A DNA stretch of 64,000 bases from Nocardioidaceae bacterium (GTDB lineage Bacteria; Actinomycetota; Actinomycetes; Propionibacteriales; Nocardioidaceae), in assembly GCA_017744365.1 (NCBI GenBank), contig JAGIBL010000002.1:682001-746000 (forward strand). Direction: 5' to 3'. Position numbers and translations under genes: made by a program. Under the pieces are notes generated by a model. It made no database searches, was not told the origin of the DNA, and saw nothing but the letters and a program-made list of their open reading frames with translations. Of the stretch, positions 9,817-50,880 are shown piece after piece (the first letter of the stretch is position 1; the number at the start of each line of letters is the position of its first letter).

Positions 9817-10509
9817 GTGGGCGAGGGCAGGCGCCGGGGGCGGCCCCGGCAGATCTCCCGGGAGCAGATCGTGGACGCCGCCGTCGCGCTGGGCCGGTCC
9901 TCGGGTGCCGACGACCTGCGGATGAGCGAGGTGGCTCGCGCCCTCGACGTCGGCGCGACCGCGCTCTACAACCACGTCCGGGACCGCGACGAGCTGCTCG
10001 CCCTGGTGGCCGCGCGGATCATGGACGAGACGCCGTACGACGACTTCGAGCCCGGCCCGGACGCGACCTGGCAGGACTGGGTCTCCGCGTTCGCGCACGC
10101 GACCCGGGCCGCGATCGTGGCGCACCCGCAGCTGCTGCAGTACGTACGGCTGACCAGCACGCCGACGGCGCTGCGGCTGGACCGGATCGAGCACCTGGCG
10201 ACCGCGCTCGACGAGGCCGGCTTCGGGACCGCCGAGGTGCAGCACTGCGTGCAGGCGATCTACACGCTCGCCCTGGGCGAGGCCTGGCAGCGCTCGCTCG
10301 CCGCCGGCGGGGACGACCCCCAGTACGCCGAGTTCGACCGCGGTGTCCGCGAGCGGGCCGGCGACCTCCCCCACCTCGAGGAGATGCTCGCCGCCCGCCC
10401 CGACCCGGACGCCCAGTTCACCTTCGCCCTCGACTGCCTCCTCGCCGGCATGTCGACCCGGCTCAAAGGTGCACGTCATTGCGCTGACCTGGCGCAAAGG
10501 CGCACGTAG
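9817..10509 (+). CDS. TetR family transcriptional regulator with C-terminus read from a repeat element
   Basis: This 230-residue regulator has an N-terminal helix-turn-helix (about residues 14-60: RGRPRQISREQIV, MSEVARALDVGATALYNHV) and a helical ligand-binding domain. GTG 9817 has an excellent AGGAGG five bases upstream. It is divergent from the phosphotransferase operon, which it probably controls. The last about 16 codons (KGARHCADLAQRRT, then TAG) are read from the dispersed palindromic repeat at 10455-10567, so the original C-terminus has been replaced or extended by repeat sequence. Ligand unknown. Confidence 0.88.
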   Translation: MGEGRRRGRPRQISREQIVDAAVALGRSSGADDLRMSEVARALDVGATALYNHVRDRDELLALVAARIMDETPYDDFEPGPDATWQDWVSAFAHATRAAIVAHPQLLQYVRLTSTPTALRLDRIEHLATALDEAGFGTAEVQHCVQAIYTLALGEAWQRSLAAGGDDPQYAEFDRGVRERAGDLPHLEEMLAARPDPDAQFTFALDCLLAGMSTRLKGARHCADLAQRRT

Positions 10510-10567
10510 TACGTGCGCTTTTGCGCCAGGTCAGCGTCAACACGTGCGCTTTTGCGCCAGGTCAGCG
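10455..10567. repeat. Palindromic multi-unit repeat element, copy 1
   Basis: Forward unit CGCTGACCTGGCGCAAA lies at 10482-10498, preceded by a degenerate forward unit (GACCCGGCTCAAA, 10455-10467). Inverted units TTTGCGCCAGGTCAGCG lie at 10520-10536 and 10551-10567. The two inverted units are 31 bp apart. The centre is palindromic (CGCACGTA/TACGTGCG around 10509), so the whole element can form one long hairpin. It lies between convergent TetR and purB; purB's stop follows two bases later. Confidence 0.9.
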
Positions 10568-10568
10568 T

Positions 10569-11987
10569 CTACAGGATCGCGCCCGGCACGTACGACGCCG
10601 AGGCCGGATCCCCCGCGACGACCTGCTCGACCCGGGCGACGACGGCCTGGGTCTGGGCGACCGCGGCGCCGGTGAACTCGATCGGGTCGGCCACCAGGGC
10701 GGCGATCTGCTCGCGCGTCAGGCCGAGGCGGGTGTCCGCGGCGAGCCGGTCGAAGAGGTCGTTCTTGTCGAGACCGGCCCGCATCTCCAGGGCGACGCCG
10801 ACGGCGTGCTCCTTGATCGCCTCGTGCGCCTCCTCACGGCCGACGCCGTTGCGCACCGCGGCCATCAGCACCTTGGTCGTGGTGAGGAACGGCAGGTACC
10901 GGTCGAGCTCGCGCTGGATCACCGCCGGGAAGGCGCCGAACTCGTCGAGCACGGTCAGGAACGTCTGGAACAGCCCGTCGCAGGCGAAGAACGCGTCCGG
11001 CAGCGCGACCCGGCGCACCACCGAGCAGGAGACGTCGCCCTCGTTCCACTGGTCACCGGCCAGCTCGCCGACCATGGACAGCTGGCCGCGCAGCACCACG
11101 GCGAGGCCGTTGACCCGCTCGCAGGACCGGGTGTTCATCTTGTGCGGCATCGCCGAGGAGCCGACCTGGCCCTCCTTGAAGCCCTCGGTGACCAGCTCGA
11201 TGCCGGCCATCAGCCGGATCGTGGTGGCCAGGTTCGACGGGGCGGCCACGACCTGCACCAGCGCGGAGACGACGTCGAAGTCGAGCGAGCGCGGGTACAC
11301 CTGGCCGACGCTGGTCAGGGTCTGCGCGAAGCCGAGGTGCTCCGCCACCCGCCGCTCCAGCTGGTCCAGCTTGTCCGAGGAGCCGTCGAGCAGGTCGAGC
11401 ATGTCCTGGGAGGTGCCCATCGGGCCCTTGATGCCGCGCAGCGGGTACCTCGCGATCAGCTCGTCGAGCCGGGTCAGCGCGACCAGCAGCTCGTCGGCGA
11501 CGGTGGCGAACCGCTTGCCCAGCGTGGTCGCCTGCGCGGCGACGTTGTGGGACCGGCCGGCCATCACCAGGGTCTCGTGCTCGGTAGCCAGCCGCGCCAG
11601 CCGGGCCAGCGTCGCCACCACGCGCTGGCGGACCAGCCGCAGCGAGGCGAGGATCTGCAGCTGCTCGACGTTCTCGGTGAGGTCGCGCGAGGTCATCCCC
11701 TTGTGGATGTGCTCGTGACCCGCGAGCGCCGCGAACTCCTCGATGCGCGCCTTGACGTCGTGCCGGGTGACCCGCTCGCGCGCGGCGATCGAGTCCAGGT
11801 CGACCTTCTCCACGACGGCCTCGTAGGCCTCGACGACGCCGTCGGGGACGTCGATGCCGAGGTCCCTCTGCGCCTTGAGCACGGCGATCCAGAGCCGTCG
11901 CTCGAGCACGATCTTGTGCTCGGGCGACCAGATCTCGGCGAGGTCGGCCCCGGCGTACCGGGTGGCGAGGACGTTGGGGACACTCAT
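10569..11987 (-). CDS. purB: Adenylosuccinate lyase
   Basis: PurB removes fumarate from SAICAR and from adenylosuccinate in purine synthesis. The 472-residue product carries the fumarase/aspartase superfamily signature GSSAMPHKMN, with TSRDLTENVEQLQ upstream and the AGRSHNVAAQ segment holding the catalytic histidine region. I chose ATG 11987 (MSVPNVLATRY); upstream in-frame sequence is not protein-like. It lies downstream of purD on the same strand with a 76-base gap. The stop codon directly abuts repeat element 1, which may act as its terminator. Confidence 0.95.
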   Translation of the reverse strand: MSVPNVLATRYAGADLAEIWSPEHKIVLERRLWIAVLKAQRDLGIDVPDGVVEAYEAVVEKVDLDSIAARERVTRHDVKARIEEFAALAGHEHIHKGMTSRDLTENVEQLQILASLRLVRQRVVATLARLARLATEHETLVMAGRSHNVAAQATTLGKRFATVADELLVALTRLDELIARYPLRGIKGPMGTSQDMLDLLDGSSDKLDQLERRVAEHLGFAQTLTSVGQVYPRSLDFDVVSALVQVVAAPSNLATTIRLMAGIELVTEGFKEGQVGSSAMPHKMNTRSCERVNGLAVVLRGQLSMVGELAGDQWNEGDVSCSVVRRVALPDAFFACDGLFQTFLTVLDEFGAFPAVIQRELDRYLPFLTTTKVLMAAVRNGVGREEAHEAIKEHAVGVALEMRAGLDKNDLFDRLAADTRLGLTREQIAALVADPIEFTGAAVAQTQAVVARVEQVVAGDPASASYVPGAIL

Positions 11988-12063
11988 CGGCTTCCTCGCT
12001 TCGCATCGGGCGCCGCCGAGTGTCCCCGAGGGCTGTATCGGATTTGCTCGCTCCGCTCGCGGG

Positions 12064-13305
12064 TCACGATCGAACCTCTCCTGCCGCCTTCGCGGCGATG
12101 TCGGTGCGGTACTGGGCACCGTCGAACCTGATCGCGGCGACGCCGTCGTACGCGCGCGCCCGGGCGTCGGCCAGGTCCTCGCCGACCGCGGTGACCGCGA
12201 GCACCCGCCCGCCGGCGGTGACCAGGGCGTCGTCGACCAGCGCCGTACCGGCGTGGATCACGTCGCACCCGGCGCTCTCGATGCCGCTGATGACGTCGCC
12301 GGAGTGCGAGGACGCGGGGTAGCCGGCACTCGCCATCACCACGGCGACCGCGGCCCCCGGCTTCCAGCGCGGCGGCTCGACCTCGTGCAGCTTCCCGTCC
12401 GCGGCGCCCTTGAGCAGGGCGGCCAGCGGCGAGTCGAGCAGCGCGAGCAGCGGCTGCGTCTCCGGGTCGCCGAACCGCGCGTTGAACTCGACGACCTTGA
12501 CGCCGCGCTTGGTCAGCGCCAGGCCGGCGTAGAGGAGCCCGGAGAAGACGGTGCCGCGGCGGGCGAGCTCGTCGACCGTCGGCTGCAGCACCCGCTCGAG
12601 CACCTCGGCGACCAGGCCGGCCGGCGCCCACGGCAGCGGCGTGTAGGCGCCCATGCCGCCGGTGTTCGGGCCCTCGTCGCCGTCGGAGATGCGCTTGAAG
12701 TCCTGCGCCGGCTGCAGCGGGTAGACCGTGGAGCCGTCGGTGATCGCGAACAGCGAGACCTCGGGACCGTCGAGGTATTCCTCGATCACCACCCGCTCGC
12801 ACCCGGCGGCGTGCGCCACGGCCTCGACGCGATCGGAGGTGACCACGACACCCTTGCCCGCCGCGAGCCCGTCGTCCTTCACGACGTACGGCGGGCCGAA
12901 GGCGTCCAGCGCGGCCTCGACCTGCTCGGGGGTGGTGCACACGTGCGCCATCGCGGTGGGCACCTCGGCCGCGGCCATCACGTCCTTCGCGAACGCCTTG
13001 GAGCCCTCGAGCTGGGCGGCCTCGCCCGACGGACCGAAGCAGGAGATGCCGCGCTCGCGGACCGCATCGGCCACCCCGGCGACCAGCGGCGCCTCCGGGC
13101 CGACCACGACCAGGTCGACACCGAGGGACGCCGCCAGCGAGGCGACCGCGGTCGGGTCGAGCGGGTCGACGGCGTGGAGCGTGGCGACCGCCGCGATCCC
13201 CGGGTTACCGGGCGCGGCGTGCACCTCGGTGACGGCGGGGTCGCGGGAGAGGGCCAGCGCGAGGGCGTGCTCCCGGCCGCCGGTGCCGATCACGAGGGTC
13301 TTCAC
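12064..13305 (-). CDS. purD: Phosphoribosylamine-glycine ligase
   Basis: PurD (GAR synthetase) joins phosphoribosylamine and glycine with ATP. The 413-residue protein starts VKTLVIGTGGREHAL, the family N-terminus. It has the ATP-grasp core with PYVVKDDGLAAGKGVV and the metal-binding ARFGDPETQ, and the GPNTGGMGAYTP signature. GTG 13305 is chosen because it begins exactly at the conserved N-terminus. It is co-oriented with purB downstream and divergent from a TetR gene. Length is as expected. Confidence 0.95.
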   Translation of the reverse strand: MKTLVIGTGGREHALALALSRDPAVTEVHAAPGNPGIAAVATLHAVDPLDPTAVASLAASLGVDLVVVGPEAPLVAGVADAVRERGISCFGPSGEAAQLEGSKAFAKDVMAAAEVPTAMAHVCTTPEQVEAALDAFGPPYVVKDDGLAAGKGVVVTSDRVEAVAHAAGCERVVIEEYLDGPEVSLFAITDGSTVYPLQPAQDFKRISDGDEGPNTGGMGAYTPLPWAPAGLVAEVLERVLQPTVDELARRGTVFSGLLYAGLALTKRGVKVVEFNARFGDPETQPLLALLDSPLAALLKGAADGKLHEVEPPRWKPGAAVAVVMASAGYPASSHSGDVISGIESAGCDVIHAGTALVDDALVTAGGRVLAVTAVGEDLADARARAYDGVAAIRFDGAQYRTDIAAKAAGEVRS

Positions 13306-13398
13306 GTAGGAGAAGGTTAGTCGCCGCGCGGGGCGGCCGGTGACGGCCTGCTCCGCGGTGGAACCGCAAGCCCCCGGGGAATCGACCAACGAACTTTT

Positions 13399-13428
13399 CG
13401 GATCGCTGTCGTTCGCGCTTCCGATCCG
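13399..13428. promoter_or_regulatory. Candidate inverted repeat upstream of TetR
   Basis: CGGATCG (13399-13405) and CGATCCG (13422-13428) form a 7-bp inverted repeat with a 16-base spacer, 14 bases before the TetR start and in the purD/TetR divergent space. It could be an autoregulatory operator. Spacer length is long for a TetR site, so this is tentative. Confidence 0.3.
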
Positions 13429-13441
13429 CCAGAGTGTCGGA

Positions 13442-14071
13442 ATGAGCCGAGCAACGGGGACGATGCGCAGCTACGGCGGACGCAGTGCTGACGAGCGGAT
13501 CGCCGAGCGCCGGGAGCGCCTGGTGGCCGCGACCATCGAGGTGCTCGCCGAGAACGGCGAGACCCGGACCACGATGAGCCGCATCTGCACCCAGGCAGGG
13601 CTGTCCGAGCGCTACTTCTACGAGAGCTTCGCCGACCTCGACGACGCCCTGCTGACCGCCCTCGACGAGGTCTGCACGGAGATCCTCGGCATCGCCATGC
13701 ACACCGTCGAGCACACCAGCGGAGACGCCGAAGAGCGCGTGCGTGCGGTCGTTTCGACTGTCGTGGACCTCGTCGTGGCGCAGCCGTCGAAGGCCAAGGT
13801 GGCGGTCATCCACGCCAGCGCCAACCCGCGGCTGCGGGCCCGGCGGCACGAGCTCATCGGCCTCTTCGGCGACTTCGTCGGACGCGAGGGATCGGTGATG
13901 TTCGGCGAGGACGCCTGGCCGCCGGCACGGGCCCGGCTGCAGGGCATCGCGTCCATCGCGGGGTTCGCCGAGATCGTGGCCGCCTGGCTCAGCGGCGACG
14001 TCGACCTGGACCGCGACGGGCTCGTCGAGTTCGGTCAGGACCTGTTCTCCACGCTGCTGCGCCGGCGCTGA
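13442..14071 (+). CDS. TetR family transcriptional regulator
   Basis: This 209-residue protein has a TetR helix-turn-helix at about residues 21-65 (RERLVAATIEVLAENG, TTMSRICTQAGLSERYFYESF) and a C-terminal helical domain. I chose ATG 13442; a second ATG at 13463 is possible, and the frame remains open upstream without protein-like content. It is divergent from purD. Neighbours give no clear target; the convergent catalase-like gene ends 27 bases after it. Confidence 0.85.
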   Translation: MSRATGTMRSYGGRSADERIAERRERLVAATIEVLAENGETRTTMSRICTQAGLSERYFYESFADLDDALLTALDEVCTEILGIAMHTVEHTSGDAEERVRAVVSTVVDLVVAQPSKAKVAVIHASANPRLRARRHELIGLFGDFVGREGSVMFGEDAWPPARARLQGIASIAGFAEIVAAWLSGDVDLDRDGLVEFGQDLFSTLLRRR

Positions 14072-14098
14072 TGATCTAGACCAGTCCGGGTCCGTGGA

Positions 14099-14980
14099 TC
14101 AGGACATCCGGCGGCGGGCGGACTCGCCGTACGCGGCCGCCCGGTAGTGCAGGATCGGGTCGTCGGAGAGGCCGATGCCGGGCACCACGCGGGTCGGGTC
14201 GAAGACCACGATCTCGCCGTTGGTCTCTCGCTCCGGGTCGGTGCCGGTGACCTCGATCGTGCCCGCGTCGAACCAGTCCCCCTGCCACACCGACATCGGG
14301 TCGTGGGGGTCCTCGCCGGGCCGGGCCCGCTGGACCTCCAGGGTGTACTGCACCGGCCCCGCGGCGAGCCGGGCGACGATCTCCTCCTGCAGCCGGTCCG
14401 CGCCGTCGTACGAGCCCTCCGGCGCGGTGCTCGAACGCGGCGTGAACCGGTAGCGGACCCACGTGGAGGAGCCGTCGGCGGCGGTCCACGAGTAGGCGTG
14501 CACGGGGTAGTACGTGGCCTCGGCGTAGGAGCGCGGCGGCACGATCGCCTTGCCCTTGACGTTGGCCAGCAGCGCCGGGAACGCGGAGCGGTGCTTGAGC
14601 AGGAACAGCGGCAGCGTCACCTGCTTCTTCGACGCCTCCACGAACTCCACGAAGTCGTCCGGGGTGCGCACCGGGAAGCGCGGCGCGGTCTGGCCGAGCA
14701 GGTCGGTGGCGGTGCCGTCGGCGAGCCGGAACGAGACCGCCATCCCCCGTACGTCGGGCGCGGTGTCCGGGACCTTCGGGTTGCCCCCGCCGTTGGACCA
14801 GCGCACCCGGACCGGCACCGGCTCACCCTGCAGGTGACCGGCCGTGCACAGCGCGGTCGCCGCCGGCGTCGCGGTGAAGGTGCCGGTGTAGAAGTGGCCC
14901 TTCGCGTGCAGCGCCCGGTGTCCCGGGTGACGTCCGAAGACGCCGTTGATGCGGTCGATCGCCTGCTCGGGCTCCACCAT
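14099..14980 (-). CDS. Catalase-related (SrpA-like) heme peroxidase
   Basis: This 293-residue protein is shorter than monofunctional catalases but keeps their core: AKGHFYTGTFTATPA with the distal histidine, SNGGGNPKVPD with the distal asparagine region, RGMAVSF, and a C-terminal ILHYRAAAYGESARRR with the proximal heme tyrosine and its arginine. Such small catalase-like proteins act as heme peroxidases with organic substrates. There is no signal peptide. The ATG start at 14980 lies 18 bases past the purA stop, so it could be co-transcribed with purA. Confidence 0.88.
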   Translation of the reverse strand: MVEPEQAIDRINGVFGRHPGHRALHAKGHFYTGTFTATPAATALCTAGHLQGEPVPVRVRWSNGGGNPKVPDTAPDVRGMAVSFRLADGTATDLLGQTAPRFPVRTPDDFVEFVEASKKQVTLPLFLLKHRSAFPALLANVKGKAIVPPRSYAEATYYPVHAYSWTAADGSSTWVRYRFTPRSSTAPEGSYDGADRLQEEIVARLAAGPVQYTLEVQRARPGEDPHDPMSVWQGDWFDAGTIEVTGTDPERETNGEIVVFDPTRVVPGIGLSDDPILHYRAAAYGESARRRMS

Positions 14981-14998
14981 GGGGGGAGCCTAGATGGT

Positions 14999-16285
14999 TC
15001 AGAGGTCGTTGACGACGATCGTCTGCTCGCGACCCGGACCAACTCCGACGGCCCAGAACGGCGCGCCGGACATCTCCTCGAGCGCCTTCACGTAGACCTG
15101 CGCGTTCTTCGGCAGCTCCTCGAACGAGCGGCACCCGGAGATGTCCTCGCCCCAGCCGTCGAAGTACTCGTAGACCGGGGTGGCGTGGTGGAACTCGGTC
15201 TGGGTCATCGGCATCTCGTCGTGCCGGACCCCGTCCACCTCGTAGGCGACGCAGACCGGGATGCGCTCCCAGGAGTCGAGCACGTCCAGCTTGGTCAGGA
15301 AGAACTCGGTCAGCCCGTTGACGCGGGACGCGTACCGCGCCACCACGGCGTCGTACCAGCCGCAGCGCCGGGTGCGGCCGGTGGAGACGCCGATCTCGCC
15401 GCCGATCCGCTGCAGGTTCTGCCCGTCCTCGTCGAAGAGCTCGGTCGGGAACGGGCCCGAGCCGACCCGGGTCGTGTAGGCCTTGATGACACCGATGACC
15501 CGGTCGATCCGGGTCGGGCCGATGCCGGCGCCCACGCAGACGCCGCCGGCCACCGGGTTGCTGCTGGTCACGAACGGGTAGGTGCCGTGGTCGACGTCGA
15601 GCATCGTCGCCTGGGCACCCTCGAAGAGCACGGTCCTGCCGTCGTCGAGCGCGTCGTTGAGCAGCAGCGAGGTGTCCGCGACCATCGGCCGCAGCCGGTC
15701 GACGTACGAGAGCAGCTCCTCGACCACGGCGTCGACCGCGATCGCGCGCCGGTTGTAGACCTTGGCCAGCACCTGGTTCCGTACGTCGAGAGCCGCCTCG
15801 ACCTTCTCCCGCAGGATGCCCTCGTCGAAGAGGTCGGCCACCCGGATCCCGACGCGGTTCACCTTGTCGCCGTACGCCGGGCCGATGCCGCGCCCGGTGG
15901 TGCCGATCTGGTTCTTGCCCAGGAAGCGCTCGGTGACCTTGTCGACGGTCGAGTGGTACGACGCGATCACGTGCGCGTTCGCGCTGACCACCAGCGGAGC
16001 GATCTCGACGCCGCGCTCGACCAGCCCGTCCAGCTCGGCGAAGAGCGCCTCCGGCGAGACGACCACGCCGTTGGCGATCACCGAGGTCGCGCCCGGGGTC
16101 AGGATGCCGCTGGGCAGCAGGTGGGTGGCGTACTTCTCGCCGTTGACCACGATGGTGTGACCGGCGTTGTGGCCGCCGCTGGTGCGGACCACGAAGTCGA
16201 TCGGCTGGCTGGTCGCGAGCAGGTCGGTCGCCTTGCCCTTGCCTTCGTCACCCCACTGGGCACCGAGGACCACGATCGCGGGCAT
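14999..16285 (-). CDS. purA: Adenylosuccinate synthetase
   Basis: PurA makes adenylosuccinate from IMP, aspartate and GTP. The 428-residue product has the P-loop [11 protein letters not shown] at residues 8-18, including catalytic Asp13. HNAGHT, with the catalytic histidine, is at about 39-44. [13 protein letters not shown] and the C-terminal [10 protein letters not shown] are also present. ATG 16285 follows a GAGAGGGG element. A strong hairpin with a T-tract lies in its leader (16302-16341) and may be an attenuator. Length is normal. Confidence 0.96.
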
Positions 16286-16301
16286 GTGCCACCCCTCTCA
16301 G

Positions 16302-16341
16302 AAAAGCCGAAGAGCCCGACGTGCAACAGCACGGGGCTCTT
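16302..16341 (-). terminator. Terminator-like hairpin in the purA leader
   Basis: Read on the minus strand, AAGAGCCC pairs with GGGCTCTT, with an inner GTGC/GCAC stem and a TGTT loop. CGGCTTTTC follows 3' of the stem, so it looks like an intrinsic terminator pointing toward purA. It lies about 20-55 bases before the purA start. It may attenuate purA, or end leftward transcription arriving from the right. Confidence 0.6.
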
Positions 16342-16396
16342 GCGGCCACACGCTACCAGAGACCGGGCCCGTGGCCGCTTCGCTAGGTTGTCGGGC

Positions 16397-19316: not shown

Positions 19317-19369
19317 GCCCAGCCCGTACCCGGGTATGACACTGGTCACACCCGGGGGCTACCCGAGCG

Positions 19370-19831: not shown

Positions 19832-21361
19832 GTGACCCACACGACCTCGGCGAACCACGCCCCCGACACCGAGAAGGACCCGTGGCCGGCGCTGATCGCG
19901 CTGTGCATCGGCTTCTTCATGATCCTGCTGGACACCACCATCGTCACCGTGGCGACGCCCGCGATCATCGAGGACCTCGACGCCGAGGTGAACGCGGTGG
20001 TCTGGGTGACCAGCGCCTACCTGCTCGCGTACGCCGTGCCGGTGCTCATCACCGGGCGGCTCGGCGACCGGTTCGGCCCGAAGAACCTCTACCTGGTCGG
20101 CCTGACGATCTTCACCGCCGCGTCGCTGTGGTGCGGCCTGACCACGAGCGTCGAGGGGCTGATCGTCGCCCGGGTGGTCCAGGGCGTGGGCGCCTCGATG
20201 ATGACGCCGCAGACGATGGCGATCATCACCCGCGTCTTCCCGGTCGCCCGCCGTGGTCGGGCGATGGCGCTGTGGGGCGCGACCGCCGGCGTGGCCACCC
20301 TGGTCGGCCCGGTCCTCGGCGGCGTCCTGGTCGACTCGCTCGGCTGGGAGTGGATCTTCTTCATCAACGTGCCCGTCGGCCTGGTCGCCTTCGGGCTGGC
20401 CCTCTGGCTGGTGCCCCGGCTGGAGACGCACGCGCACAAGTTCGACTGGCTCGGCGTGGTGCTCAGCGGGCTCGGCATGTTCGCGCTGGTCTTCGGCATC
20501 CAGGAGGGCCACCAGTACGACTGGTCCACCATCACCGGCCAGATCACCGTGTGGCGGCTGATCGGCGCGGGCGTCGTGGTGCTCGCCCTCTTCGTGTACT
20601 GGCAGGCGCGCAACAGCAACGAGCCGCTGATGCCGCTGCGGGTCTTCCGCGACCGCAACTTCTCCATCTCCGGGCTCGCCATCGCCGCGGTCAGCTTCGG
20701 CTTCACCGCGATGGGCTTCCCGCTCATGCTCTGGGCCCAGGTGGTCCGCGGCTACTCGCCCACCGAGTCCGGCCTGCTGCTGGTCCCGATGGCGGTGATG
20801 TCGATCGTGCTGGCGCCCACGGTCGGCAAGCTGTCGGACCGGCTGCACCCGCGGCTGCTGACCGCGTTCGGGTTCGGGATCCTCATCGGCGCGATACTGC
20901 TCGCCGCGCTGATCCTGGGCGCGGACACCCCACTGTGGGAGGTGCTGGTCGCGATGGCGCTGATCGGCGTCGGCAGCTCGTTCCTGTGGGCGGTGCTCGC
21001 CGCGACCGCGACCCGCAACCTGCCGCCGCAGCTGGCCGGTGCCGGCTCGGGGGTCTACAACGCGGTGCGCCAGGTCGGCGCGGTGCTCGGCTCGGCCGGC
21101 ATCGCGGTGCTCATCGACGACCGGCTGGCCTCCCAGGGCCTGAGCGCGGCCGGGGGCGAGGGCGTGCCGGCGGGCCACCTGCCCGCGGCGGTCGCCGACT
21201 CCTTCAGCACGGCGATGTCGCAGTCGCTGCTGCTGGTGCCGGCGGTGCTGCTGCTCGGCTTCCTGGCGGTGCTGCTCTTCGAGCGACCACGGCACTTCGC
21301 CGCTCCGGCCGCTCCGGCCACCCCGCCCTCCACGGCGGAGCCGGCGCACGCGCTCGACTGA
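19832..21361 (+). CDS. MFS transporter, DHA2-type drug:H+ antiporter-like
   Basis: This 509-residue protein has about 14 membrane helices. The DHA2 signature LLDTTIVTVATPAI is in helix 1, GRLGDRFGPK in the loop between helices 2 and 3, and GPVLGGVLVDSLGWEWIFFIN in helix 5. Such proteins export hydrophobic compounds using proton flow. I chose GTG 19832 (VTHTTS); GTG 19817 in frame would add five residues. No regulator is adjacent. Confidence 0.87.
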   Translation: MTHTTSANHAPDTEKDPWPALIALCIGFFMILLDTTIVTVATPAIIEDLDAEVNAVVWVTSAYLLAYAVPVLITGRLGDRFGPKNLYLVGLTIFTAASLWCGLTTSVEGLIVARVVQGVGASMMTPQTMAIITRVFPVARRGRAMALWGATAGVATLVGPVLGGVLVDSLGWEWIFFINVPVGLVAFGLALWLVPRLETHAHKFDWLGVVLSGLGMFALVFGIQEGHQYDWSTITGQITVWRLIGAGVVVLALFVYWQARNSNEPLMPLRVFRDRNFSISGLAIAAVSFGFTAMGFPLMLWAQVVRGYSPTESGLLLVPMAVMSIVLAPTVGKLSDRLHPRLLTAFGFGILIGAILLAALILGADTPLWEVLVAMALIGVGSSFLWAVLAATATRNLPPQLAGAGSGVYNAVRQVGAVLGSAGIAVLIDDRLASQGLSAAGGEGVPAGHLPAAVADSFSTAMSQSLLLVPAVLLLGFLAVLLFERPRHFAAPAAPATPPSTAEPAHALD

Positions 21362-30796: not shown

Positions 30797-30819
30797 GCCC
30801 GCTATTCAACCAACCGTCG

Positions 30820-30922
30820 TGAAAGTACGCGTATTTGCGCTGACCTGGCGCAAAGGTGCGAGTACACGTGCACCTCTGCGCCAGGTCAGCGTGAACACAG
30901 GTACCTTTGCGCCGGGTCAGCG
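30820..30922. repeat. Palindromic multi-unit repeat element, copy 2
   Basis: One forward unit lies at 30838-30854. Two inverted units lie at 30875-30891 (one mismatch, TCTGCG) and 30906-30922 (one mismatch, CCGGG), 31 bp apart. The first forward unit is truncated, but its AAAGTACGCG tail is recognisable at about 30822. The element fills most of the space between the membrane-protein start and the clpB stop, which follows two bases later. Confidence 0.88.
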
Positions 30923-30924
30923 TC

Positions 30925-33546
<2,622 letters not shown>

Positions 33547-41615: not shown

Positions 41616-43459
<1,844 letters not shown>

Positions 43460-43564
43460 GTGTGTTACCTCCATCTGGGCCCGGGAGCTCCCGGGCGGTT
43501 GGTGCCTGGTCGAAGTCTGGGTTCGCCGTCATCGTCGGACCACACCGTCGAGTCTGGCAAATAA

Positions 43565-43585
43565 CTTGAGTCGCTTCAACTCAAC
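43565..43585. promoter_or_regulatory. HAIR element upstream of dnaK
   Basis: CTTGAGT-N7-ACTCAAC matches the HAIR consensus CTTGAGT-N7-ACTCAAG at all but the final base. It lies 106-126 bases before the dnaK start, in the divergent space with an aldo/keto reductase gene. It should be the HspR binding site controlling the dnaK operon. Confidence 0.9.
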
Positions 43586-43668
43586 TCTTGTCATGGGTCC
43601 CAACTCAGGTCCCCCCGGGATTGTTCCCGCTGAGGAATATCGGGCCCGGATGTGGTGTCGTGACTCCC

Positions 43669-44505: not shown

Positions 44506-44518
44506 GGGATCGCTCGAC

Positions 44519-45076
44519 CTACTGGACGGTGACCTTGACCTCGTTGGACGCGGTCTTCGAGGCCGGGTCGTAGACCCGGAAGATCTGGTCGCCGGTGCGG
44601 TTGGTGATGACCCAGGTGTCGTAGGTCCCGACGCTCACCTGGGTCTGCACCCCGAAGTCGGACCAGTCCGCGCCGAGCTTGCGCTGCACCAGCAAGCCCA
44701 TCGCGTCGTGGCCGGGCCAGGTGCCGGTGAGGTTGATCCGCTCGCCGGGCTTCACGAACACCGGGGAGGCCGACAGGGTCAGGCCCCCGGTGGCTCCGCC
44801 GGTCGGGGTGTTGGTGATGAGGCCGCTCGGCTCGCCCGAGGGCGTCGGCAGGTCGGTCGGCACCGGCAGCGCGGTCGTCGGCAGCGGCGTGACCGGGTCG
44901 ACGTGCACCTGGCCCAGCGCGCCGGTGTCGGTCTCGTCCAGGCCCAGTGACTTGACCACGACGTACGTGCCGAGCCCGATGGCCAGGCCGATGGCGACGG
45001 CCACCCCGAGCACCTTGACGCCGGCGGAGACGAACAGCTGTCGTCGCTCCTCGTCGATGCGGCTGCCCGGTGACAT
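44519..45076 (-). CDS. Membrane-anchored protein with extracellular Ig-like domain
   Basis: This 185-residue protein has a short cytoplasmic head, one membrane helix (about 17-43), a Pro/Thr-rich linker (about 60-95) and a C-terminal beta domain (about 98-185) with PGERINLTGTWPGHDAMGLLVQ. The family is unknown; the fold looks Ig- or fibronectin-like. ATG 45076 is chosen over an upstream ATG at 45106. It is convergent with the aldo/keto reductase, 13 bases apart. Confidence 0.65.
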   Translation of the reverse strand: MSPGSRIDEERRQLFVSAGVKVLGVAVAIGLAIGLGTYVVVKSLGLDETDTGALGQVHVDPVTPLPTTALPVPTDLPTPSGEPSGLITNTPTGGATGGLTLSASPVFVKPGERINLTGTWPGHDAMGLLVQRKLGADWSDFGVQTQVSVGTYDTWVITNRTGDQIFRVYDPASKTASNEVKVTVQ

Positions 45077-45121
45077 CACGGCCCCAGGATAGGGGGGCGG
45101 CGGCAACCGGGCCGCCGTCGG

Positions 45122-45544
45122 TCAGAACCGCGAGTAGATGTTCTCGTCGACCATCCGCACGCTCCGCCAGCCGTCGGCCGTCCGGACCAGGTCGTGGTGG
45201 TAGTAGCCGCCGACCTCCCAGAGGATCTCCTTGCCCTCGGGGTCGGTCATCACGAGCGGGTTGACGAAGTACGCCGTCGCGCGGGCCTTGTCGGGGCCGT
45301 CGAAGTCGATCGCCACCTGCCCGATCGTGTGCTGGTAGCGGGTGAACAACGACAGCCCGTCGATCACCCACGGCCGCGCCTCGGACAGCGGCGCCACCGG
45401 CCCGTCCACCGAGGAGTAGTCGAGGATCGCGCCGTCGGCGAAGACGTGGTCGAGGTCGTCGAAGCTACGGGTGTCGATGGCCCGGGTGTAGCGGGTGATG
45501 ACCTCGCGGATCTCCATCCGGTCGGAGAGCTCCTGCAGTTCCAT
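45122..45544 (-). CDS. SnoaL/NTF2-like protein
   Basis: This 140-residue protein has the NTF2-like cone fold layout: helical N-terminus with REVITRYTRAIDTRSFDDLDHVF, then beta strands HTIGQVAIDFDG and EVGGYYHHDLVRTADGWR. Many are steroid-isomerase or dehydratase relatives, but catalytic residues vary. It is divergent from the LLM operon, and a KstR-like palindrome lies between them, so a link to that catabolic cluster is likely. Confidence 0.85.
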   Translation of the reverse strand: MELQELSDRMEIREVITRYTRAIDTRSFDDLDHVFADGAILDYSSVDGPVAPLSEARPWVIDGLSLFTRYQHTIGQVAIDFDGPDKARATAYFVNPLVMTDPEGKEILWEVGGYYHHDLVRTADGWRSVRMVDENIYSRF

Positions 45545-45613
45545 CTGTCCTCCTGTGAAGGCGCCTTCAGAAAAAAGGTGACGAGAGCCTCGTCCGCACT
45601 CTAGTCACGAAAA

Positions 45614-45627
45614 TGGAACACGTTCTA
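45614..45627. promoter_or_regulatory. KstR-type operator (TnnAACnnGTTnnA), exact match
   Basis: TGGAACACGTTCTA matches the KstR consensus at every fixed position. It lies 12-25 bases before the LLM oxidoreductase start and between that gene and the divergent SnoaL-like gene, so it can control both. KstR-type repressors control steroid and lipid catabolism in actinobacteria. Confidence 0.72.
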
Positions 45628-45638
45628 GTGTTGTGGCC

Positions 45639-46517
45639 ATGCGTTTCTCCTTTGCCGAGGGCATGACGAAGGCCGAGTACTACGCGCCGCTGGCGCAGGC
45701 CTGCGAGGCCGCCGGCTACACCTCGATGACCGTCGCCGACTCGCTGATCTACCCGAAGGAGTCGGACTCGAAGTACCCCTACACCGACACCGGCGACCGG
45801 GAGTTCCTCGAGGGCAAGGAGTTCATCGAGACGATGATCCTGTGCGCGCACCTGTTCGCGGTGACCTCGACGCTGCGGCTGACGCCATTCGTGCTCAAGC
45901 TGCCGATCCGCCCGCCGGTGCTCGTCGCCAAGCAGGCCGCCTCCCTGGCGTTCCTGTCGAACAACCGGCTCGGCTTCGGCGTCGGCCTCTCGCCGTGGCC
46001 CGAGGACTTCGCGGCCCTCGGCGTCCCGTGGGAGCGGCGCGGCAAGCGCACCGACGAGTGCATCGACATCATCCGCGGCCTGACCAGCGGCGAGTTCTTC
46101 GAGTACCACGGCGAGTTCTACGACATCGAGCCGCTCAAGCAGTGCCCGGCGCCGACCGAGCCGGTCCCGATCCTGGTCGGCGGCCACTCCGACGCCGCGC
46201 TGCGCCGGGCCGTGCTCAAGGGCGACGGCTGGATGCACGCCGGCGGTGACGGCGAGGAGCTGGACCGGCTGCTGGAGCGGCTCGCCGAGATCCGCAAGGA
46301 GGAGGGCGACGACCGCGACGACTTCGAGGTGCACGTGATCTCGTACGACGCCTACACGATCGACGGGATCCGGCGGCTGGAGGACAAGGGCGTCACCGAC
46401 TGCATCGTCGGCTTCCGGATCCCCTACATCGTGGGCCCGGACACCGAGCCGCTGCAGACCAAGATCGACAACCTCAACCGGTACGCCGAGGACGTCATCT
46501 CGAAGGTCTCGCTGTGA
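45639..46517 (+). CDS. LLM class flavin/F420-dependent oxidoreductase
   Basis: This 292-residue TIM-barrel luciferase-like protein has GFGVGLSPWPEDFAALGVPWERRG and PILVGGHSDAALRRA, typical of the LLM superfamily, many of which use F420. The start is ATG 45639 (GTG 45633 two codons earlier is possible). It opens an operon in which the next genes overlap by four bases. A redox step in the breakdown of a lipid-like compound is a reasonable but unproven reading. Confidence 0.88.
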   Translation: MRFSFAEGMTKAEYYAPLAQACEAAGYTSMTVADSLIYPKESDSKYPYTDTGDREFLEGKEFIETMILCAHLFAVTSTLRLTPFVLKLPIRPPVLVAKQAASLAFLSNNRLGFGVGLSPWPEDFAALGVPWERRGKRTDECIDIIRGLTSGEFFEYHGEFYDIEPLKQCPAPTEPVPILVGGHSDAALRRAVLKGDGWMHAGGDGEELDRLLERLAEIRKEEGDDRDDFEVHVISYDAYTIDGIRRLEDKGVTDCIVGFRIPYIVGPDTEPLQTKIDNLNRYAEDVISKVSL

Positions 46518-47668
46518 GCGACGAGGTCGCCGGCGTCTTCGCTGACGCCGTACGAGAAGCCGAGGCGCTGGTCAGGAACCCGCCTTTCCCGATCGACGAC
46601 CAGGACCTCGCCGAAGGCCTCGACTACCTCGCCGGCAGCATCCGCTCCTCGCTGCAGATGGCCTTCGACTACGACCTCGAGCACCCGGTGCTCATCAACC
46701 CCACGCACCAGTACGCCCGGCAGGGCCTGGACAACCCGGACGCGATCTACTTCAACGCCTACCTCGACGAGGGTGCGACCTACGAGGTCTCCGGCGTCCG
46801 TGGGACCACGACGGACCTGTCCTTCCAGATCATGGACGGCAACTACTCCGCGGACGGGTCGCCGACCTCGCTGGCCGCCTTCGACGACCGCGAGCTCGAC
46901 GTCGCGGCCGACGGGTCGTTCTCCTGGCGCTTCGGCCCGGAGATGGGGCTGAAGAAGGGCGCCACCCTCATCGTCCGCGAGGTCTACTCCGACTGGAACG
47001 CCGAGGACCGTGGCACGCTGCGGATCCAGCGGCTCGACACCGCCGGGGTGCCGCGCGGACCGGTCGAGCTGGACCGCATCGCCAAGCGGTACGGCGTCGC
47101 GGCCAAGATGCTCACCGGCAAGATCAAGACCTGGTTCGCGTTCCCGGAGTGGTTCACCTACAAGGAGCCGGTGAACACCCTGACGACGCCGACGTCGACG
47201 CCCGGCGGGCTCGCCTCGCAGTTCTCCTCGCTGGGTCACTACTCGTTGGACGAGGACCAGGCACTCGTCGTCACCGTGCCGGTCTGCGACGCGGCGCCGT
47301 ACCAGGCCATCCAGATCGGCTCGCGCTGGTACGTCTCCACCGACTACGAGCACCACCAGACCTCGCTGACCGGCGCGCAGTCGCAGGCCGACCCGGACGG
47401 GTTCTTCCGGTACGTCGTGAGCGAGCGCGACCCCGGCATCGCCAACTGGCTGGAGACCACCGGCCACGCCCAGGGCGTGATGATGCTGCGCTGGCAGCGG
47501 CTCTCCCGCGACCTGACCGCCGCCGACGGCCCCGCCGTCGCCCTCGTGCCCTTCGACCAGCTTTCGGAGAGCCTCCCCTACTTCCAGGACAACCGGGTCA
47601 CCCCGGAGCAGTACACCGCCCGCATCGCCGCCCGCCAGGTCGGCATCGCCCGAAGGATGATCTCGTGA
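46514..47668 (+). CDS. Hypothetical protein, DUF1214-like
   Basis: This 384-residue soluble protein starts GTG (GTGA overlap with the preceding stop). The C-terminal part has DPGIANWLETTGHAQG and MMLRWQRLSR, which resemble DUF1214 proteins, and the middle is beta-rich. I cannot assign a reaction. It is encoded between an LLM oxidoreductase and an SDR, so it may handle the same metabolite. Long open frame and tight coupling support that it is real. Confidence 0.65.
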   Translation: MSDEVAGVFADAVREAEALVRNPPFPIDDQDLAEGLDYLAGSIRSSLQMAFDYDLEHPVLINPTHQYARQGLDNPDAIYFNAYLDEGATYEVSGVRGTTTDLSFQIMDGNYSADGSPTSLAAFDDRELDVAADGSFSWRFGPEMGLKKGATLIVREVYSDWNAEDRGTLRIQRLDTAGVPRGPVELDRIAKRYGVAAKMLTGKIKTWFAFPEWFTYKEPVNTLTTPTSTPGGLASQFSSLGHYSLDEDQALVVTVPVCDAAPYQAIQIGSRWYVSTDYEHHQTSLTGAQSQADPDGFFRYVVSERDPGIANWLETTGHAQGVMMLRWQRLSRDLTAADGPAVALVPFDQLSESLPYFQDNRVTPEQYTARIAARQVGIARRMIS

Positions 47669-48507
47669 ACCACACCCTTGGCTACGCCGACGCCCACGAC
47701 ACCTCGATCGAGGAGCGCTACATCCCGGCGCCCCTGCTGAAGGGCAAGGTCATCGTCATCTCCGGCATCGGGCCCGGCCTCGGCCGCTCGCTGGCCGTCG
47801 AGGCCGCGAAGATGGGCGCCGACCTGGTGCTCGCCAGCCGGACCCTCGAGCGCCTCGAGGAGCTGGCCAAGGAGGTCGCCGAGCACGGCGTGCGCGCGGT
47901 CACCGTGGTCACCGACGTGACCGACGAGGACTCCCGGGCGAACCTGCGCGACAAGGCCCTCGAAGCCTTCGGCCGGGTGGACTGCGTCATCAACAACGCG
48001 TTCGCGATCCCGCCGATGGACCCGATCACCCAGATCGACCCGAAGAAGCTGGCGAAGGTCAACGAGACCAACGTGTTCGCGCCGCTGCGGCTCTCGGCTC
48101 TCTTCGCCGACGCGCTCGCGGAGTCCAAGGGCTCGGTCATCATGCTCAACTCCTGCGTCTCGTTCTCCTCCCAGCCCGAGTACGCCGGCTACAAGCTGTC
48201 CAAGGGCGCGCTGGAGCACCTGGCCTCGTCCCTGGCCACCGAGCTCGGCCCGCGCGGCATCCGGGTCAACAGCGTGGCGCCGTCGTACATCTACGAGGAC
48301 GTCAACCGCGGCTACTTCGACTTCCTGGCCGCGGTGGAGGGCAAGACCCACGAGCAGGTGTACGCCGAGAAGGCAGCGCCCACGGACCTGCAGCGGCTGG
48401 CGTCCTCCGAGGAGGTGGCCCGGGCGACCCTGTTCCTGGCCAGCGACCTCGCCAGCGCGGTCACCGGGCAGATGCTGACCGTCGACTGCGGAGAGTTCCA
48501 CGACTGA
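47665..48507 (+). CDS. SDR family oxidoreductase
   Basis: This 280-residue short-chain dehydrogenase has the Rossmann motif SGIGPGLGRSLA, NNAFA, the YxxxK active site in GYKLSKGALEHL (preceded by a serine strand NSCVSF) and a C-terminal DCG. The start is GTG 47665 with a four-base overlap. The N-terminal 24 residues before the Rossmann fold are longer than usual. Probably oxidises or reduces an intermediate of the same pathway as its neighbours. Confidence 0.9.
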   Translation: MNHTLGYADAHDTSIEERYIPAPLLKGKVIVISGIGPGLGRSLAVEAAKMGADLVLASRTLERLEELAKEVAEHGVRAVTVVTDVTDEDSRANLRDKALEAFGRVDCVINNAFAIPPMDPITQIDPKKLAKVNETNVFAPLRLSALFADALAESKGSVIMLNSCVSFSSQPEYAGYKLSKGALEHLASSLATELGPRGIRVNSVAPSYIYEDVNRGYFDFLAAVEGKTHEQVYAEKAAPTDLQRLASSEEVARATLFLASDLASAVTGQMLTVDCGEFHD

Positions 48508-48508
48508 C

Positions 48509-49666
48509 ATGTCCGACAACGTCATGGCCCGCGAGCGCGCGGACGTCGGCTCCTACGAGGACATCGCCGCGGCCGCCGTACGGACGACCGGGATGAGTGA
48601 CTTCGGGGACGGCGCCCACGAGGAGGGCCTGCGCGTCCTGGTCGAGGACCTGGCCTCGGCCGAGGCCGGGCTCACCCCGCGCGGCAACTACTTCCAGCGC
48701 TCGGAGGTGAAGAGCGCACTGGTCGGCGTGCTGCTCACCCAGGCACAGTTCGCCGCGCACCCCGAGCACGCGGACGTGCCGATCGAACGGCCGGTCTTCC
48801 TCATGGGCCTGCCCCGCACCGGCACGACCGCGCTGCACCGGCTGCTGCACGCCGACCCGGCGGCGCAGGGGCTGGAGATGTGGCTGACCCAGTACCCGCA
48901 GCCGCGCCCGCCCCGGGAGACCTGGGAGGACGACCCGATCTTCACGGCGATGCAGCAGGCCTTCGCCGCGCACCACGTCGAGTCACCGGAGTACATGGGC
49001 ATCCACTACATGGACGCGACCACCGTCGAGGAGTGCTGGCGGCTGCTGCGCCAGACCGGCAAGTCCAACTCCTACGAGTCGCTGGCCAACGTGCCCCGTT
49101 ACACCGAGTGGCTGGCCAAGCAGGACTGGACCGACGCCTACGCGCGGCACAAGCAGAACCTGCAGCTCGTCGGCCTCAACGACGCCGACAAGCGCTGGGT
49201 GCTGAAGAACCCGTCGCACATGAGCGCGCTGGACGCGCTGATGACCGTCTACCCGGACGCGCTGGTCGTCTACACCCACCGGGACCCGGTCACCTGCATC
49301 GCGTCCTCGTGCTCGCTCTCGGCCGAGACCACGGTCGGTCACTCCACGACGTACGACGGCGAGGTGATCGGCCGCACCCAGCTGGACCTGTGGTCGCGCG
49401 CCTACCACGCCTTCCACGACGCCCGTCCGGCGTACGACCAGGACCAGTTCATCGACATCGCGTTCGGCGACCTGGTCAAGGATCCGCACGGAACGACGCG
49501 GCAGGTCTACGAGAAGTTCGGCCTCGACTGGACGCCCGAGGTGGAGGCCGCGATCTCCGCGCTCGACCGCGAGTCCAAGGAGGGCAAGACCAAGCCGCGG
49601 CACTCCTACGACCTGGCCGACTACGGGCTCACCGAGACGCAGGTGCGCGCGGCGTTCGACCGGTAG
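48509..49666 (+). CDS. Sulfotransferase family protein
   Basis: This 385-residue protein has the PAPS-binding P-loop GLPRTGTTALHRLL (about 98-111) and the 3'-phosphate motif with YTHRDPVTCIASSCS. These support a PAPS-dependent sulfotransferase. The substrate is unknown; actinobacterial members act on lipids and sugars. It starts one base after the SDR stop (TGACATG), so it completes the LLM-DUF1214-SDR operon. Confidence 0.88.
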   Translation: MSDNVMARERADVGSYEDIAAAAVRTTGMSDFGDGAHEEGLRVLVEDLASAEAGLTPRGNYFQRSEVKSALVGVLLTQAQFAAHPEHADVPIERPVFLMGLPRTGTTALHRLLHADPAAQGLEMWLTQYPQPRPPRETWEDDPIFTAMQQAFAAHHVESPEYMGIHYMDATTVEECWRLLRQTGKSNSYESLANVPRYTEWLAKQDWTDAYARHKQNLQLVGLNDADKRWVLKNPSHMSALDALMTVYPDALVVYTHRDPVTCIASSCSLSAETTVGHSTTYDGEVIGRTQLDLWSRAYHAFHDARPAYDQDQFIDIAFGDLVKDPHGTTRQVYEKFGLDWTPEVEAAISALDRESKEGKTKPRHSYDLADYGLTETQVRAAFDR

Positions 49667-49755
49667 GAGAAAGTCCGCGGAAAAGTGTCGGATCCGCGGG
49701 GGCTGGATCGTCGTACCAGTGAGAGGAAGTTTCAGCTCACCGAGGAGATCCGGCC

Positions 49756-49908
49756 ATGTGGGACACCGTGCAGACCAACGAGATCCACCTGTCGCACGAC
49801 CTGCCGTGCGCGAGCTGCGGACACGCGGCGCACACCTTCCTCGCCTGCAGCGACAGCTGCGACTGCGTCCGGAGGTTCCTGCCCGGCAGCGACGCGCTGG
49901 CCGCGTAG
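49756..49908 (+). CDS. Small cysteine-rich protein (50 aa)
   Basis: The ATG at 49756 follows GAGGAG and encodes a 50-residue protein, MWDTVQTNEIHLSHDLPC at the start. It has five cysteines and four histidines, arranged as CASCGH then CSDSCDC, ending LPGSDALAA. This is a likely zinc-binding fold. Size is below usual annotation limits. It lies between the sulfotransferase and the alpha/beta hydrolase, both plus strand. Role unknown. Confidence 0.62.
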   Translation: MWDTVQTNEIHLSHDLPCASCGHAAHTFLACSDSCDCVRRFLPGSDALAA

Positions 49909-49978
49909 TCCGGAGTCGATGTCGAGAACGCCCGGCCTCGTTCGACGTAGGGTCACCAACGCGAACGAGGAGAGAACC

Positions 49979-50770
49979 ATGAACGTCCAGACCACCGCTT
50001 CCGCGGACGGCACCACCATCGCGTTCCACGCGCTCGGCGAGGGCCCGGCGGTCGTCGTCGTGGGCGGCGCCACCAACCGCAAGACCGACTGGCTGGAGCT
50101 GGCCGAGGCGCTGGCCGCGGACGGCTTCACCGGCGTCACCTACGACCGGCGCGGGCGAGGCGAGAGCGGCGACACCCGCCCGTACGCCGTCGAGCGCGAG
50201 ATCGAGGACCTCGCCGCGGTGATCGCGGCGACCGGCGGCAGCGCCGGCGTGCACGGCGTCTCCTCCGGCGGCGCGCTCGCGAACCGGGCCACCGCCGCCG
50301 GCCTGCCGATCACCAGCCTGTCGACCTTCGAGACGCCGTACCGGGTCGGCGACGCCCCCACGCCCCCGGCCGACTACGTCGAGCACCTGCAGTCCTTGTA
50401 CGACGCGGACGACGCCGACGCGATGCTGGAGTACTTCATGGTCGCCGGGGTCGGGCAGCCGGCCGAGCAGGTGGCGGCGATGAAGGAGATGCCGTTCTGG
50501 GCCGACCTCGCCTCGATCGGCCGGACCGTGCTGTACGACGGCTACTGCCTCGGTGGCAGCCAGGCGCCGCTCCCGGCCGACCTGCTCGCCTCGATCAGGG
50601 TGCCGGTGCTCGCGCTCGGCAGCACCGGGAGCCCGGACTGGCTGCGCAACGCCTCGAAGGCAGCCGCGGCTGCCGTCCCGGACGGGCGCTACCTCGAGCT
50701 GGAGGGCGAGTTCCACAGCGCCCCGACGCACGTCCTGGCCCCCGCCCTCGCCGCCCACCACCACCGCTGA
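49979..50770 (+). CDS. Alpha/beta hydrolase
   Basis: This 263-residue alpha/beta hydrolase has the nucleophile elbow GVSSG (Ser95), YDRRGRGES upstream and a C-terminal EFHSAPTH supplying a histidine. The substrate is unknown. ATG 49979 follows GAGGAGAG. Its TGA stop lies inside repeat element 3: the CGCTGA of the first forward unit provides the last codon and the stop. Confidence 0.88.
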   Translation: MNVQTTASADGTTIAFHALGEGPAVVVVGGATNRKTDWLELAEALAADGFTGVTYDRRGRGESGDTRPYAVEREIEDLAAVIAATGGSAGVHGVSSGGALANRATAAGLPITSLSTFETPYRVGDAPTPPADYVEHLQSLYDADDADAMLEYFMVAGVGQPAEQVAAMKEMPFWADLASIGRTVLYDGYCLGGSQAPLPADLLASIRVPVLALGSTGSPDWLRNASKAAAAAVPDGRYLELEGEFHSAPTHVLAPALAAHHHR

Positions 50771-50880
50771 CCTGGCGCAAAAGTGCCCGTGTTGACGCTG
50801 ACCTGGCGCAAAAGTACGAGTGCACGTGCACCTTTGCGCCAGGTCAGCGCAATGACGTGCACCTTTGCGCCGGGTCAGCG
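50765..50880. repeat. Palindromic multi-unit repeat element, copy 3 (complete)
   Basis: Two forward units CGCTGACCTGGCGCAAA lie at 50765-50781 and 50796-50812. Two inverted units lie at 50833-50849 and 50864-50880 (the last with CCGGG). Both pairs are 31 bp apart, giving a symmetrical four-unit palindrome with GTGCACGTGCAC near the centre. Both flanking convergent genes take their TGA stop from its ends. Confidence 0.92.

Follow-up and report, generated by a model that had tools for sequence, protein, structure and literature searches.

Dispersed four-unit palindromes of a Nocardioidaceae genome share their repeat unit with an AbiEi/PD-(D/E)XK-like gene

The 64,000-nucleotide stretch analysed here (the window; contig JAGIBL010000002.1 of a Nocardioidaceae bacterium, positions 682,001 to 746,000) carries three palindromic elements made of a 17-base unit, CGCTGACCTGGCGCAAA, laid out as two forward (F) and then two inverted (R) copies. 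We think it probable that they belong, as non-autonomous members, to a two-part system that resembles REPIN but is built on an unrelated enzyme. The first part would be a chromosomal gene for an AbiEi/PD-(D/E)XK-like protein, at a locus that we call L071, with inverted arrays of the 17-bp unit on either side. The second would be the dispersed palindromes of that same unit, about 116 bp long with an F-F-R-R layout, lying at the 3' ends of genes. The linkage of gene and unit is well supported; the mobilisation of the palindromes by the enzyme is something we infer.

The repeat unit and its partner gene

Within the window CGCTGACCTGGCGCAAA has 11 matches at up to three mismatches, against 0.32 expected from shuffled sequence, and 10 of them fall inside the three elements; the eleventh, at 21064 with three mismatches, is probably a chance match. 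The genome from which the window comes (G000; 4,757,382 bases in 15 contigs, rated 100% complete) has 123 matches at up to two mismatches, 62 forward and 61 reverse, and the reversed pattern used as a control has none. With such excesses in window and genome alike, chance occurrence of the unit is ruled out. A first-pass annotation of the window, correct in the sequences and coordinates of the three elements, had allowed that the unit might be confined to these places or be scattered elsewhere without the layout; with 123 genomic matches and a layout that recurs, neither is the case. At 36 sites (33 G000 loci selected among about 105 of the 123 places that were listed, plus the three window elements) unit arrays are present without exception at up to four mismatches. 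At up to three mismatches 37 arrays were counted, 15 of them ++--, eight +--, seven ++- and seven of other composition, and the outer units are frequently decayed. Units of the same direction are mostly 31 bp apart, as had been claimed for the window (41 of 58 gaps), with 32 bp in 16 gaps and 30 bp in one; the F-R centre spacing is 37-40 bp in 32 of 33 cases, which gives the hairpin-forming inverted doublet of a REPIN. A further likely unit site in G000 lies at C8:453267-453327.

The gene that carries the same unit is at L071 (G000:C11:274693-275634), outside the window, where an open reading frame (ORF) of 314 amino acids (aa) stands between an FFF and an RRRR array. The statement that the element is "not a transposon with an ORF" consequently holds for the three window copies and fails for the family. 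G000 has seven homologues of the L071 protein (E<=0.001), and the four closest (L071 itself and L086-L088) each lie between inverted tandem arrays of their own unit: CGCTGACCTGGCGCAAA with a period of 31/32 bp, CTGAGGCGTCTCAGATG and CGAGCGGGCAGTTTGTAC with 32 bp, and CCCGCCGAATCCGGCC with 22 bp. All four units are dispersed as well, with 123, 78, 40 and 51 matches, copies beside the gene included (mismatch limits 2, 3, 3 and 3, the fourth counted as a tandem pattern), against 0, 0, 1 and 0 for the reversed patterns.

Similar arrangements exist beyond G000. Among 341 genomes searched in the family, 8 (G000 included) have two tandem copies of a core, TGACCYGGCGCA (controls 0), spaced by 22 bp in G111, G145 and G188, by 31/32 bp in G000, G211, G230 and G323, and by 13 bp in G180. 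At up to two mismatches this core lies at both flanks of a homologue in G145 (22 bp), G211, G230 and G323 (32 bp). The 13-bp tandem of G180 (L098, G180:C28:134442) has three copies without inverted partners and is possibly coincidental. A scan of named genomes covered the best 80 of 279 relatives, mostly from Nocardioides and Marmoricola; the reading frame of the gene is open in 79 of the 80, with two short ORFs of 198 and 266 aa. Both flanks reach at least 400 bp in 73 of these loci, and 29 are non-redundant by flank (seven short-flank and 44 redundant loci were left out). Of the 29, 25 show inverted flank matches with a score of at least 16, a threshold chosen after seeing the data; the corresponding numbers are 2 of 51 for distal windows and 4 of 29 for matches in direct orientation. 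With a score of at least 14, tandem arrays are present in 44 of the 58 flanks and in 4 of 102 distal ones. The array periods cluster near whole helical turns, with exceptions: 32 bp in 27 arrays, 22 bp in eight, 42 bp in five, and 21, 31, 33 and 44 bp in one each. Such steps, of roughly 10 bp, point to binding along a single face of the helix.

In the class as a whole, 252 of 394 genomes contain homologues (profile search, E<=1e-15). Among nine loci from other actinomycete families, seven have inverted flanks with a score of at least 16, all seven with TGATCATGCA; the misses are L363 (score 14) and the incomplete L364. The motif [CT]GAN4[GT]C is found in 55 of 70 inverted segments, which are not independent of each other, against a mean of 22 and a maximum of 32 in shuffles. 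The TGATCATGCA-type flanks belong to L361, L362 and L366-L370 (f10, f29, f31, f41), some of them in tandem with 22, 33, 37-38 or 44 bp; positions in the incomplete loci L361 and L364 are uncertain. Six distant homologues (L090, L091, L311, L313, L314 and L316) have inverted or palindromic flanks without clear tandem units, perhaps a related type of element.

The protein encoded at L071

Compared with Pfam, the L071 ORF matches AbiEi_4 (26 bits, cut-off 25) and, below the respective cut-offs, REase_MTES_1575 (REase, restriction endonuclease), DUF559 and AbiEi_1. A set of 72 homologues (67 of the 80 retrieved loci and five others, with 13 over-long, short, broken or near-duplicate sequences left out) is more uniform: three AbiEi models of PADLOC match 72 of 72, and at E<=0.01 AbiEi_4 matches 51, MTES_1575 (PF18741) 48, AbiEi_1 18, DUF559 (PF04480) 15 and Transposase_20 one. 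Residues E210, D243, H261, D269 and R272 are invariant in the homologue alignment, and EYDG (254-257) is at least 90% conserved. From these matches the L071 homologues appear to combine an AbiEi-like N-terminal DNA-binding region with a C-terminal PD-(D/E)XK-like (MTES_1575/DUF559) domain, and the L071 protein is a putative nuclease. As for a related copy bearing a DDE transposase, the ORF-bearing copy at L071 encodes the AbiEi/REase-like protein, and its IS110-type matches are all below cut-off. The neighbouring genes, read by eye, look like era and ABC-transporter genes.

Upstream of the gene, 78 of 85 loci (L071, L086-L088, L105 and L122-L201) have the motif TCCACAG, at 4.4 per kb in the 250 bp upstream against 0.10 elsewhere. 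The strict form TYRTCCACA, which we take to be DnaA-box-like, is present upstream in 38 of the 85. The motif could link expression or mobility to replication, or else be an operator.

The last possibility belongs to a regulatory or defensive interpretation, in which the protein is an AbiEi-type repressor or nuclease, the arrays near the gene are its operators, and the dispersed sites serve a surveillance nuclease as decoys or as marks of self. It would account for the AbiEi models that match all 72 homologues and for an array on the promoter side together with the TCCACAG motif, and AbiEi-type antitoxins autoregulate via inverted repeats (PMC7319586). However, arrays lie downstream of the gene too, the dispersed copies are at gene 3' ends, with 2 of 82 between divergent genes, and no AbiEii-type (DUF1814) toxin gene was noticed beside L071, the one locus at which ORFs were read for this by eye. 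We regard such an interpretation as very improbable.

Chromosomal addresses and coevolution

The 85 loci fall into 43 chromosomal addresses, the largest holding 18, 13 and 7 loci. Different species with the gene at the same address have different units, which match between the two flanks in most members; at the largest address 15 of 18 loci have a flank score of at least 20, the misses being L147, L165 and L192. Homologues were found in 2 of 72,556 plasmid records (E<=1e-10) and in 1 of 50,697 phages (E<=1e-5). Shared addresses and this near-absence from plasmids and phages indicate that the gene is mostly resident, as has likewise been reported for RAYT genes (PMC3116915). Unit similarity is correlated with protein similarity for all three parts of the protein (Mantel 0.22-0.27, p 0.001, in 60 of the 72 loci). 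Since the gene persists at one address while the unit changes, enzyme and repeat specificity would be evolving together rapidly if the pair is a counterpart of REPIN/RAYT.

The addresses also bear on homing, whereby the protein would recognise the F-R palindrome and cut near its centre, repair would copy the gene into empty palindromes, and the palindromes themselves would spread by other means. The L071 gene does sit at the would-be centre of an F-R palindrome, and the number of addresses, 43 among 85 loci, also speaks for it. On the other hand, each of the four G000 unit types stands beside one gene copy only, against many gene-less palindromes, and the large clusters at one address suggest little homing. 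We consider this explanation improbable.

Placement at gene 3' ends

Gene orientation around the elements was called with a codon-composition heuristic, without a genome-wide baseline. For the CGCTGACCTGGCGCAAA family (family A) 57 of 70 called sides are gene 3' ends; for the other three families (B, C and D), whose loci were taken among the matches listed and whose counts are therefore incomplete samples, the figures are 22 of 32, 28 of 34 and 30 of 38, which brings the four families to 137 of 174. Where both sides could be called, 50 elements lie between convergent genes, 30 between co-directional and 2 between divergent ones; under no preference, convergent and divergent cases should be about equal. 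In family A, 46 of 57 stop codons fall in a range that begins 11 nt ahead of the first unit detected and reaches 31 nt into it; among the matches listed, 16 of 22 (B), 19 of 28 (C) and 17 of 30 (D) do so. In 15 family A cases the reading frame closes at the unit's own TGA. In family B (L202-L231) the centre spacings step by about 10 (20, 27-28, 38-39 and 48-49 bp), not clearly so in C and D.

Element 2 of the window, at the 3' end of an ORF that we take to be clpB, gives a view of the empty site. Among 23 relatives, 22 have no unit at that gene end at up to three mismatches. The remaining one, G095 (L338), has two weak unit matches inside a different FFF..RRRR element with a 32-bp period, so that this gene end is occupied by one element family in G000 and by another in G095. 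A similar neighbouring gene was recognised in G066, G104, G107 and G113 (by motif) and in G060 (by eye), and none of these five relatives carries element 2, the junction having been read by eye; in G066 and G107 an ordinary hairpin is found there. The loci from G101 and G119 stop short of the site. Downstream of the clpB-like gene, L319 (G071) and L322 (G084) have inverted-repeat elements of another sort, whose ends are of the ATGTAACG...CGTTACAT type.

Placement of this kind is what the main rival of our mechanism would predict, namely that the palindromes are primarily host-selected bidirectional terminators or stabilisers of 3'-end RNA and that their link with the nuclease-like gene is incidental. 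Besides the 137 of 174 sides and the 50:30:2 distribution just given, both heuristic, it would explain the very stable hairpins on both strands, the inner arms that stay paired, and the ordinary hairpins that replace the element at the clpB-like site of G066 and G107. It leaves unexplained, however, why one unit lies on both sides of a gene, why four units go with four paralogues, and why copying is polar. Nor does it sit easily with the 23 other genomes of the genus, in which the F..R palindrome was not found and in which, at one mismatch, the unit has 24 scattered matches in 14 genomes (five in G095) against seven for the control pattern. We therefore think it unlikely, and terminator function may be a by-product of the system. 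These same few, scattered matches, with no F..R palindrome among them, also rule out a binding site common to the genus. In a wider collection of genome contigs, to which G000 itself may not belong, the exact palindrome pattern had no match.

Copying of the palindromes and the proposed mechanism

Of 35 elements taken for a comparison of arms and linkers, L071 being left out, 32 had a well-defined centre and were used. On average an inner forward arm has 1.75 mismatches in 26 positions to the inverted partner in its own element, and 3.01 to the partners in other elements (permutation p 5e-5). Mismatches within the inner arms include 19 G-U and 20 A-C pairs as read on the + strand; G-U being about as frequent as A-C, nothing indicates that one RNA strand is under selection. 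The linkers vary around a GTGCACGT-like core, as had been described for the window, and can be divided into two classes, A and B, which were defined after seeing the data: an A and a B linker occur together in 26 of the 32 elements, and a pair of B linkers in none (permutation p 2.5e-4). From linker types that differ within the element we conclude that the family A palindrome is copied as one polar unit, and that selection or correction keeps its inner hairpin paired.

We propose the following mechanism. Several protein monomers would occupy the phased units along a single DNA face, in the way that AbiEi proteins bind repeats, and the nuclease-like domain would then cut or nick the palindrome, probably in the form of a hairpin or cruciform. 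Repair or re-synthesis could copy the palindrome to new sites and homogenise its arms. The insertions that survive would be those at gene 3' ends, where the hairpin may double as a terminator, and the gene itself would mostly stay put, as RAYT genes reportedly do.

A number of observations weigh against this proposal. With respect to the protein, the REase_MTES_1575 match of L071 is well short of its cut-off (19.2 against 38.2 bits), residues 157-228 have weak IS110-type similarity (Transposase_20, 17.9 against 21.3 bits; NF033542, 15.1 against 140), and the best hit of a profile search of solved structures with L071 is not significant (E 0.61). With respect to the linkage, the three distant homologues of G000 lack tandem arrays: L089 has no flanking repeats, and L090 and L091 have inverted flanks of another, non-tandem kind (scores 25 and 17). 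In G188 there is only one weak unit on each side of the homologue, and neither G111 nor G180 has a homologue with the TGACCYGGCGCA core at up to two mismatches. Periods of 37/38 bp (L367), 26/52 bp (L351) and 13 bp (L098) depart from the helical steps. The coevolution test does not favour an AbiEi-type binding step either, since in same-address pairs the C-terminal part of the protein correlates best with the unit (0.50) and the N-terminal part least (0.17), and a partial Mantel test does not single out the N-terminal region as the specificity part. No covariation was seen between the outer arms (p 0.8, in a test weakened by 31- and 32-bp spacings that were not aligned) or between tandem neighbour units (p 0.15-0.20). 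Finally, the arrays that flank L071 have, by eye, A-type linkers only, which means that the dispersed copies do not derive directly from the gene copy now present.

Comparison with known systems

Considering the first-pass description of the elements as REPIN/BIME-like, the obvious comparison is with the REPIN/RAYT system (REPtron), in which each repeat family is tied to its own single-copy gene with the repeat nearby (PMC3116915, PMC3733652). Here too the repeat flanks a partner gene, with one gene per family (four units for four paralogues), the gene being one other than a RAYT. Dispersed extragenic palindromes, inverted doublets that give a hairpin and several gene-repeat pairs per genome are further points in common (PMC3116915, PMC3733652). 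The description is apt as far as it concerns dispersed palindromes at gene ends that are copied as whole units, and it fails for RAYT membership. The linked RAYT-like transposase that it had led one to look for was not found: Y1_Tnp (PF01797) has no match in the complete-rated G000 genome (E<=0.001), against matches in 5 of 14 control genomes. GTAG directly follows the unit in 0 of 115 cases, the 5' side being uncounted; GA stands before CG, giving GACG, the complement of the CGTC of the second REP class, in 32 of the 115. Membership is ruled out on these two grounds, and to an ordinary REPIN/RAYT pair whose transposase had been missed we give next to no credence, although our elements resemble it in general, as extragenic and lineage-specific inverted doublets that form hairpins (PMC3116915). 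The partner differs as well, an AbiEi plus PD-(D/E)XK-like protein in place of a Y1/HUH transposase, and so does the architecture, with usually four regularly spaced units instead of a doublet and a gene between inverted multi-unit arrays.

Other systems share single traits with this one. In the TIRYT/TIRtron arrangement an enzyme gene lies between inverted repeats that are also dispersed as families (PMC3733652), but TIRYTs are tyrosine HUH transposases, unrelated to the present enzyme, and the phased tandem units are particular to the present case. The operators of AbiEi antitoxins in type IV toxin-antitoxin systems resemble it in the AbiEi-like region and in repeats bound in sets (PMC7319586): AbiEi binds 23-bp inverted repeats 3 bp apart, and Rv2827c binds repeats 13 bp apart within the pair, a difference of 10 bp (PMC7319586). 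They differ in that our protein carries a nuclease-like domain fused to the AbiEi-like region, that no toxin partner was noticed beside its gene at L071, and that the repeats lie on either side of the gene as well as dispersed at gene 3' ends. Vsr-type REases with winged helix-turn-helix domains have been described in giant proteins (PMC3710099). The C-terminal PF18741 (48 of 72) and PF04480 (15 of 72) matches recall this MTES_1575/Vsr-type group, whereas the protein here is a stand-alone one of about 315 aa linked to repeat arrays, unlike the giant HEPN/helicase fusions. Miniature inverted-repeat transposable elements and transposon ends with several transposase sites, such as those of Tn7, have multiple direct sites per end, inverted between the ends, and gene-less copies. 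The present family has all of these traits, but no DDE transposase was recognised in its gene-bearing copy, L071.

The open-access literature searched gave no description of such an AbiEi/REase-repeat system, in agreement with the initial statement that no actinobacterial family of this structure was known. Because the enzyme-repeat pair would work like REPIN/RAYT, its mobilisation being presumed, and yet lacks both the Y1_Tnp gene and the GTAG that help to define that system, we regard it as categorically new. A broader proposal is that actinomycetes have independently evolved a counterpart of REPIN/RAYT, in which an AbiEi-REase fusion binds helically phased tandem units and copies palindromes round the genome, with unit and enzyme specificity coevolving rapidly; here we find the arguments for and against evenly balanced. 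If it is true, this may be a major unrecognised source of dispersed repeats in bacteria, given that 252 of the 394 genomes sampled in the class have a homologue. Published dispersed palindromes with a known partner enzyme, as far as we found them (PMC3116915, PMC3733652), depend on the HUH tyrosine transposase alone, and a second, unrelated enzyme that left an equal genomic signature would mean that this lifestyle has more than one origin. It would also suggest a function for a large uncharacterised gene family of the AbiEi/DUF559 type and offer many natural protein-repeat pairs for reading AbiEi-type DNA recognition; the tendency towards spacings of 22, 32 and 42 bp lends itself to a direct test.

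The three elements of the window

The three elements are the sole palindromes above the threshold of a palindrome scan of the window. The folding check proposed at the outset was run: all three fold as long hairpins on both strands, with z-scores from -7.7 to -12.9. A known Rfam RNA family is ruled out, Rfam having 0 matches at gathering score in the window. The four-unit F-F-R-R design is clearest in element 3, and the first forward unit, noted as degenerate or truncated in the other two, is recognisable there 31 bp upstream of the second (at about 10451 and 30807).

Element 1 (10451..10567) comprises a degenerate F1 at about 10451-10467, F2 at 10482-10498, R1 at 10520-10536 and R2 at 10551-10567, its inner hairpin (F2, linker and R1) extending over 10482..10536. 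It lies between convergent ORFs, one at 9804-10487 (+), which stops at a TGA inside F2, and one at 10569-12119 (-), which terminates just past R2. Element 2 (30807..30922) has a very degenerate F1 at about 30807-30823, followed by F2 at 30838-30854, R1 at 30875-30891 and R2 at 30906-30922, and is abutted by the 3' end of the 873-aa ORF at 30925-33546 (-), presumably clpB. Element 3 (50765..50880) is complete, with F1 at 50765-50781, F2 at 50796-50812, R1 at 50833-50849 and R2 at 50864-50880; its inner hairpin, F2/R1, extends over 50796..50849, and its neighbours are convergent ORFs at 49685-50770 (+) and 50875-51675 (-).

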